From Sphaerobacteraceae bacterium (lineage in GTDB: Bacteria > Chloroflexota > Chloroflexia > Thermomicrobiales > Thermomicrobiaceae), in NCBI GenBank assembly GCA_007695115.1, contig REEK01000097.1:1-64000 (forward strand): DNA of 64,000 nt, written 5' to 3'. This document shows positions 18,459 to 19,525 of this stretch, one piece after another. Below the pieces are notes generated by a model. It made no database searches. It had not been told where the DNA came from and saw only the letters and a list, made by a program, of their open reading frames with translations. Position 1 is the first letter of the stretch, and each line of letters begins with the position of its first letter. The translations under genes and the position numbers were made by a program.

Positions 18459-19022
18459 CTACCAGACCCGCGTCGGAATCCGCGTCGCCCAGATCGAATC
18501 CGGAAACAGCTCCTGGAGTTTGTACCAGATCGGGTACATCTCATCATTGGAGTGGGTCTTGAGGTACGTGGCAATCGCCAGCCAGTACAGCACTTCATCG
18601 GCCAGCTTGCCGTCTGGATCCCGCTCAAAGGCGGCTTCCAGACGCTGAATCGCTGCATCCATCCGGGTCCAGCGCAGATCGACGTGTGCCTCACCGAGAT
18701 CCAGGATCGTCAGAAACTCACGCGGCGGCAGGAAGTTCACACTCCGGTAGTGCACCGTGCCCCGGCGATCGGCGAACAGCAGGGTTGGCGTCCAGATCAC
18801 GTTGAGCGGGCGCACCATCGCACGCGGGCTCTTGAAGAGATCGAGCTTCAGCAGCACGAATCGCTCGGAAAGCTGACGGTGAACTTCGGGATCGGGATAC
18901 GTCACGGTATCCAGCTCTTCGCAGCCGCGTCAGGGATCCTTCATCACATCGATGAAGAGCGGCTTGCGTTCATCGAGCGAGCGCTGGCACGCCGCGTCGA
19001 AATCATTCTCCCAGTGCAGCAT
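18459..19022 (-). CDS. Selenocysteine-containing thioredoxin-like protein with TPR-like C-terminus (UGA = Sec31)
   Basis: Read through one in-frame TGA (18930-18932), the frame runs 187 residues from ATG 19022 to TAG 18459. The TGA is codon 31 in DP-U-R-G-C-EELD, so selenocysteine would replace the first Cys of a CxxC site, with Cys34 as resolving residue. The thioredoxin fold is supported by the beta-strand PLFIDV before the site and the cis-proline motif IWTPTLLF. The last ~65 residues look TPR-like (YWLAIATYLKT ... LFPDSIWATR). GAGGGGAG lies at good distance before ATG 19022, which overlaps the upstream DinB stop as TAATG, implying coupling. A truncated call from GTG 18905 would lack the active site and a good ribosome-binding site. 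Alternatives are a sequencing error or a pseudogene. It probably acts as a thiol/selenol oxidoreductase, since no signal peptide is seen. Confidence 0.82.
18895..18932 (-). promoter_or_regulatory. Candidate bacterial SECIS hairpin after the UGA codon
   Basis: On the minus strand the TGA (18932-18930) is followed, after 17 bases, by a perfect 6-bp stem GGAUAC (18912-18907) / GUAUCC (18900-18895) with loop CGUGAC. The loop begins 23 nt after UGA and has G as second base. This fits the bacterial SECIS consensus as I remember it: a small hairpin inside the coding region, apical loop about 16-37 nt downstream of UGA, G among the first two loop bases. Binding by SelB is inferred. Confidence 0.65.
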
Positions 19023-19525
19023 TATGGCTGCTCCCCTCGATCACGAATCCCCAGCATCCGCATCCGCCACCGCTCGGCCTCGCTGGCATGATTGGCCACG
19101 TGTCGGGCAATCAACCGCCGAAAGAACGAACGGAGCGGCTCCACGGTACCGGTCGGGTATGGTCCTTTGCGTTCCAGCTCATCATCCTGAATCTGATCGA
19201 GACACTCGATCACGCGAGCCCAGGCATTTCTGAGATCTTCGGCCGCTTCCGGCCACGGCTGAATTCCCCGCACGGCCGCCTGATCATGGTTCCAGGCGTC
19301 AACGTCGCGGATCGGTCGGGCTGGTGGCTGTTTGGCGCGAATACGCTCCACCGAATCAATAATCTCATGGTGCCAGTCCGCCATATGCCCGGCCATATCC
19401 CGGGCAGACCACACCCCGCTGATCGGCTTCATTTCCAGATCGGTGGTCTCGAATCCCTCCAGCGCAGCGAAGAAGCGCTCGTGGGCCTCGTTGATCTCCT
19501 GCTTCAGTTCGCTTACCCGTACCAC
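19022..19525 (-). CDS. DinB/YfiT-like four-helix-bundle protein
   Basis: A 167-residue protein of the DinB superfamily. The helical pattern includes WSARDMAGHMADWHHEII with candidate metal-binding His residues and a late His pair in ARHVANHASEAERW. Members include metal-dependent thiol (bacillithiol, mycothiol) transferases as well as many proteins of unknown role. The start GTG 19525 has GGGAGG six bases upstream. Its stop overlaps the start of the thioredoxin-like gene (TAATG), so the two are one translationally coupled unit. This pairing makes a thiol-related role attractive but unproven. Confidence 0.75.
   Translation of the reverse strand: MVRVSELKQEINEAHERFFAALEGFETTDLEMKPISGVWSARDMAGHMADWHHEIIDSVERIRAKQPPARPIRDVDAWNHDQAAVRGIQPWPEAAEDLRNAWARVIECLDQIQDDELERKGPYPTGTVEPLRSFFRRLIARHVANHASEAERWRMRMLGIRDRGEQP

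Follow-up and report, generated by a model that had tools for sequence, protein, structure and literature searches.

Does the single TGA that interrupts an open reading frame on the minus strand of this Sphaerobacteraceae contig end translation, or does it specify selenocysteine (Sec) within a longer protein? In the window (the whole stretch of 64,000 nucleotides analysed here), positions 19022 to 18459 translate as MLHWENDFDAACQRSLDERKPLFIDVMKDP-U-RGCEELD...IPTRVW*, with only one in-frame TGA. The preliminary description had placed this TGA at 18930-18932 in a frame of 187 codons and read it as Sec in a U-R-G-C motif, and both the codon and the frame were confirmed on the minus strand. We consider it very probable that the region 18459-19022 encodes a cytoplasmic, Sec-containing thioredoxin-fold oxidoreductase of 187 aa in which UGA is decoded as Sec, with the insertion predicted at residue 31. 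The features of the locus are listed below.

18459..19022, minus strand: putative selenoprotein gene, 187 aa, Sec at residue 31, TAG stop; a Thioredoxin_7-like domain (residues ~1-110) and a TPR-like helical tail (~121-180)
18930..18932, minus strand: UGA codon for the predicted Sec31, first position of the U-R-G-C redox motif
18921..18923, minus strand: Cys34 codon (TGC), putative resolving Cys of UxxC, invariant
18895..18912, minus strand: bSECIS-like hairpin GGAUAC-CGUGAC-GUAUCC, six perfect pairs and a 6-nt loop
19023..19038, minus strand: Shine-Dalgarno-like GAGGGGAG and spacer before the ATG, read directly from the sequence
19022..19525, minus strand: DinB_2-family ORF (167 aa), upstream and overlapping
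18459..18905, minus strand: 148-aa ORF from an internal GTG, without the active site, from standard table-11 calling

The start of the long frame has the signals that had been proposed for it: a Shine-Dalgarno-like sequence lies 8 nt 5′ of the ATG, which itself shares bases with the TAA stop of the DinB_2-family ORF (TAATG). Standard ORF calling starts instead at the GTG at 18905, yielding 148 aa and losing the UxxC active site, exactly the kind of truncation by automatic calling that had been anticipated. The DinB_2-family ORF is probably co-transcribed with the selenoprotein gene, and DinB-type proteins include thiol-dependent transferases. However, only 4 of 25 compared neighbourhoods retain the two genes side by side, and a different gene turns up in eight of the loci at no fixed distance. 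As the gene neighbourhood is poorly conserved, we draw no operon-based function from it, and it lends no support to any activity other than a thiol-disulfide-type reaction.

Of 61 searched genomes belonging to the order, 34 gave near full-length matches; named records identify the group as the Thermomicrobiales (Thermomicrobiaceae, Sphaerobacter, Thermomicrobium and Thermalbibacter). Residue 31 was read in 30 of these loci, 23 of which carry TGA and seven a Cys codon (TGC or TGT); of the four further matches, one (L084, in G023) has TGA at this position and the other three each hold one internal TGA. TGA is present as well in Thermalbibacter longus, which is an isolate. A profile search of 400 genomes of the phylum added eight loci from other Chloroflexota lineages, all with TGA at residue 31, and a named-genome search added an Actinomycetota metagenome-assembled genome, which may be misbinned, with the same codon. 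The weaker Cys-bearing matches of the phylum search are other thioredoxin-like proteins, many of them in frames of 600-700 aa.

The expectation that homologues would show Cys or Sec at position 31 was therefore borne out in the relatives read. Because dozens of genomes conserve the full frame, including the 30 codons 5′ of the TGA, and because codon 31 is TGA, TGC or TGT wherever it was read, the interrupted frame is not a chance occurrence. Among closer relatives, third codon positions are the most frequent sites of substitution upstream of the TGA, a coding-like pattern.

A bSECIS search around the UGA had been proposed, and a bSECIS-like hairpin was found downstream of it. In the source gene, the hairpin occupies nt 18-35 after the UGA; its loop is separated from the UGA by 23 nt and has a G at its second position, and the hairpin fits the bSECIS model described previously (PMC13188914). 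Folding energies are -10.8 kcal/mol for the 45 nt that follow the UGA and only -6.0 kcal/mol for the 18-nt hairpin alone. Taken by itself, the source-gene hairpin has just a marginal advantage over synonymous shuffles (p = 0.058), and a fold stability test of the 56-nt region found no unusual stability (z = -0.08). It is from comparison across the family, not from the source sequence alone, that support for a putative SECIS element comes.

All Sec forms examined have such a hairpin. In a first register, comprising 25 loci, 100% of stem cells pair over 24 distinct sequences, and sliding the partner columns by 1-3 positions lowers the pairing to at most 62%. Both sides of the stem have changed at two pairs, from A-U to G-C and from G-C to C-G; the covariation score was reached by none of 500 shuffles, which keep relatedness, so that this count is not a probability. 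In a second register, found in L024-L026, in L032, L034, L036 and L084, and in L087, the hairpin is displaced by approximately 7 nt towards the UGA, so that 16-17 nt separate the UGA from the loop, again with G in the first two loop positions. This arrangement suggests a register shift of the SECIS-like hairpin within one family. Five of the seven Cys forms have no hairpin; L018 retains a weak, eroded one and L043 has a weak hairpin elsewhere.

The presence of Sec machinery in the organism had been presumed, and the source genome, a 98.5% complete draft of 186 contigs, encodes all four components: a tRNA-Sec gene (selC) with anticodon TCA (74.7 bits), selB (361 bits), selA (524 bits) and selD (367 bits), all above cut-off. 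Across the order, selB or selC was detected in 24 of 27 Sec-form genomes versus 1 of 7 Cys-form genomes (Fisher p = 4e-4); this test counts genomes, not independent events, of which the tree shows only two, and the 27 include the three genomes in which residue 31 was unread and one internal TGA is present. Ordinary long-arm tRNAs also attain lower scores, so selC was counted only from 63.7 bits upwards; one such candidate, L002, at 47.3 bits in the selC search, is a tRNA-Leu. Clear selC was not found in nine Sec-form assemblies and selB over the cut-off was not found in five; both were undetected in three Sec-form drafts, G030 (77% complete), G039 (75% complete) and G035 (8% contaminated).

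In a tree built with residue 31 masked, the Cys forms are nested in two places inside the Sec forms, and we therefore regard Sec as ancestral and Cys as derived twice. One event unites genera g24 and g33 of family f5, lineages with no Sec machinery detected. The other is represented by G010, a Cys-form genome in the source genus that keeps selB. The preliminary description had mentioned Cys-containing relatives of the same layout; seven were found, but the tree derives these Cys forms from the Sec form. The G010 locus (L018, G010:C418:3583-4134) combines a Cys codon, a retained selB and a weak, eroded hairpin, a combination that suggests a recent replacement of Sec by Cys.

These comparisons bear directly on other explanations of the TGA. 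Were it a real stop, the region would comprise a 30-aa leader ORF and a separate ORF of 148 aa, or else a pseudogene. Standard ORF calling does give the 148-aa ORF, yet the 30 codons that precede the TGA show protein conservation throughout the order and in lineages outside it, the TGA is exchanged only for Cys codons, and the downstream ORF would lose the UxxC half of a thioredoxin fold; a recent pseudogene is ruled out by the occurrence of the same TGA in many lineages. We regard a genuine stop as very unlikely. An error of sequencing or assembly in a Cys codon (TGC or TGT) might be suspected in a draft of so many contigs, but the same TGA appears in many independent assemblies, including that of the isolate T. 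longus, and is always accompanied by the SECIS-like hairpin, which makes such an error extremely improbable. General suppression, in which the UGA would be read through as an amino acid other than Sec, draws on the fact that UGA readthrough can occur in bacteria. Against it stand the exclusive replacement of UGA by Cys in homologues, the location of most Cys forms where Sec machinery was not found, and the covarying hairpin at the expected distance, and we give this explanation very little credence.

On the Sec reading, SelB would deliver Sec-tRNA(UCA) to codon 31 under the guidance of the hairpin that lies 18-35 nt 3′ of the UGA, and the ribosome would thereby make the full protein of 187 aa. 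The Pfam models Thioredoxin_7 (PF13899) and Thioredoxin_2 (PF13098) match this protein over their cut-offs, and an AlphaFold2 model, folded with Cys in place of Sec, places four to five helices after a thioredoxin domain (mean pLDDT 96). TPR models match 7 of 29 family members. C34, W77 and P79 are among the invariant residues of the family alignment, and the [CU]xxC motif together with Pro79 of WTPT, the cis-Pro position as judged from sequence, falls within the thioredoxin fold. The model thus lends support to the layout proposed earlier, namely a thioredoxin fold with a WTPT loop of the cis-Pro type and a TPR-like tail. No N-terminal signal peptide is evident in the sequence, and the protein is therefore likely to be cytoplasmic.

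In thioredoxins, the residue at the first position of the motif attacks and the second Cys resolves. Because of this biochemistry and the positions of the two residues in the motif, we assign the attacking role to Sec31 and the resolving role to Cys34. The Sec31 selenolate would attack a substrate disulfide, or another oxidised sulfur, and Cys34 would resolve the mixed selenide-sulfide, with Pro79 presumably lining the active site; a reductase would then recycle the selenoprotein. The helices of the TPR-like tail probably serve to recognise another protein. The gene itself, the Sec machinery genes, the Sec/Cys exchange at residue 31, the covarying hairpin and the confident fold model are direct results; Sec insertion, the direction in which the redox reaction runs, and what the tail does and binds are predicted.

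A different function is conceivable for the same Sec-containing protein. It could be a chaperedoxin like CnoX (YbbN), which shields client proteins during folding and passes them on to chaperones, that is, a thioredoxin-TPR holdase to which Sec would add a redox repair activity. E. coli YbbN was the top structural match in Foldseek, where it and the DsbD gamma domain were the best matches among solved structures, and both YbbN and our protein have a thioredoxin domain followed by TPR or TPR-like repeats. However, CnoX is approximately 285 residues long versus 187 here, the whole-chain TM-score (TMq) is only 0.41-0.46, a poor overall superposition indicating that the arrangement or number of the repeats differs, and the tail spans about 70 residues. 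E. coli CnoX has SxxC and no Sec motif. In sequence, the protein is nearer to DsbD gamma, the best solved-structure sequence match (E 3e-9), which also aligns over the thioredoxin domain with a target-normalised TM-score of 0.71-0.76. We therefore consider a chaperedoxin role attractive but unlikely.

The Sec-containing oxidoreductase that we favour also differs from DsbD as a whole: it has no alpha or membrane domains, it carries Sec in place of Cys and it has an extra helical tail. The full DsbD model scores 36.4 bits against a cut-off of 330, and the match covers the gamma domain only. Among catalogued selenoproteins, the closest in kind are the thioredoxin-fold UxxC entries of PMC13188914 (Table 1), Sec-Trx (PF00085) and the ‘Thiol:disulfide interchange protein’ (PF13098, UxxC). 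These are alike in fold and in having Sec at the first CxxC position, but in our protein Thioredoxin_7 is the best domain match and a TPR-like tail is present. No entry in the 119-entry selenoprotein table of that review describes a thioredoxin domain with a TPR-like tail, and the review does not mention Chloroflexota. Its PF13098 entry is broad, and in principle a relative might fall within it.

Among NCBIfam models (June 2026), none fits the family. The best, TsoB (NF045694; 47.8 bits against a curated cut-off of 805) and the Trx7/PDZ (seleno)protein (NF041199; 21.8 bits against 300), fall far below their cut-offs. They too combine a Thioredoxin_7-like or DsbD-gamma-like domain with a selenoprotein and match our protein weakly and locally, but their Sec motifs (UxxxxU; CxxU) and architectures differ from those of the U-R-G-C protein. 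Titles and abstracts found for selenoproteins of Sphaerobacter or Thermomicrobium, or for thioredoxin-TPR selenoproteins, included none on this family. The portions of the deep-Sep paper (PMC12013277) and of a 2022 review (PMC9312934) covered by a term search name no such family, and a plasmid search returned ordinary thioredoxin and DsbD domains only. The protein thus appears to represent a selenoprotein family that has gone unannotated, though its general kind is familiar; other database records may already annotate it. A more ambitious picture, which we put forward tentatively and hold to be improbable in its entirety, is of an uncatalogued family that is Sec-ancestral in Chloroflexota, acts as a Sec-dependent chaperedoxin, has a SECIS in two registers and has changed to Cys twice, once without detected Sec machinery.

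The locus adds a probably unlisted family to the approximately 119 prokaryotic selenoprotein families catalogued in 2026 (PMC13188914), and one whose members standard ORF calling cuts to a form without the active site. Its Sec and Cys forms make up a natural series, in which Sec machinery accompanies some members and not others, that allows us to ask why Sec is kept or lost, and the family-wide SECIS-like hairpin, with its apparent register shift, how SelB tolerates a change in hairpin position.

Further Sec candidates emerged in the relatives and in the source genome. One genome from another Chloroflexota lineage (G249) carries two divergent Sec-form paralogues, L086 and L101. In the source genome, an in-frame TGA occurs within ACAGUASK in SelD (L049, G000:C39:27511-28437) and within RIUHSS in two FdhA-like genes (L103, G000:C48; L104, G000:C107). 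These contexts match the UxxK motif listed for SelD and the UH motif listed for FdhA families (PMC13188914); SelD and the two FdhA-like genes are therefore likely to be selenoproteins as well, and Sec use in this genome very probably extends beyond the thioredoxin-like protein.
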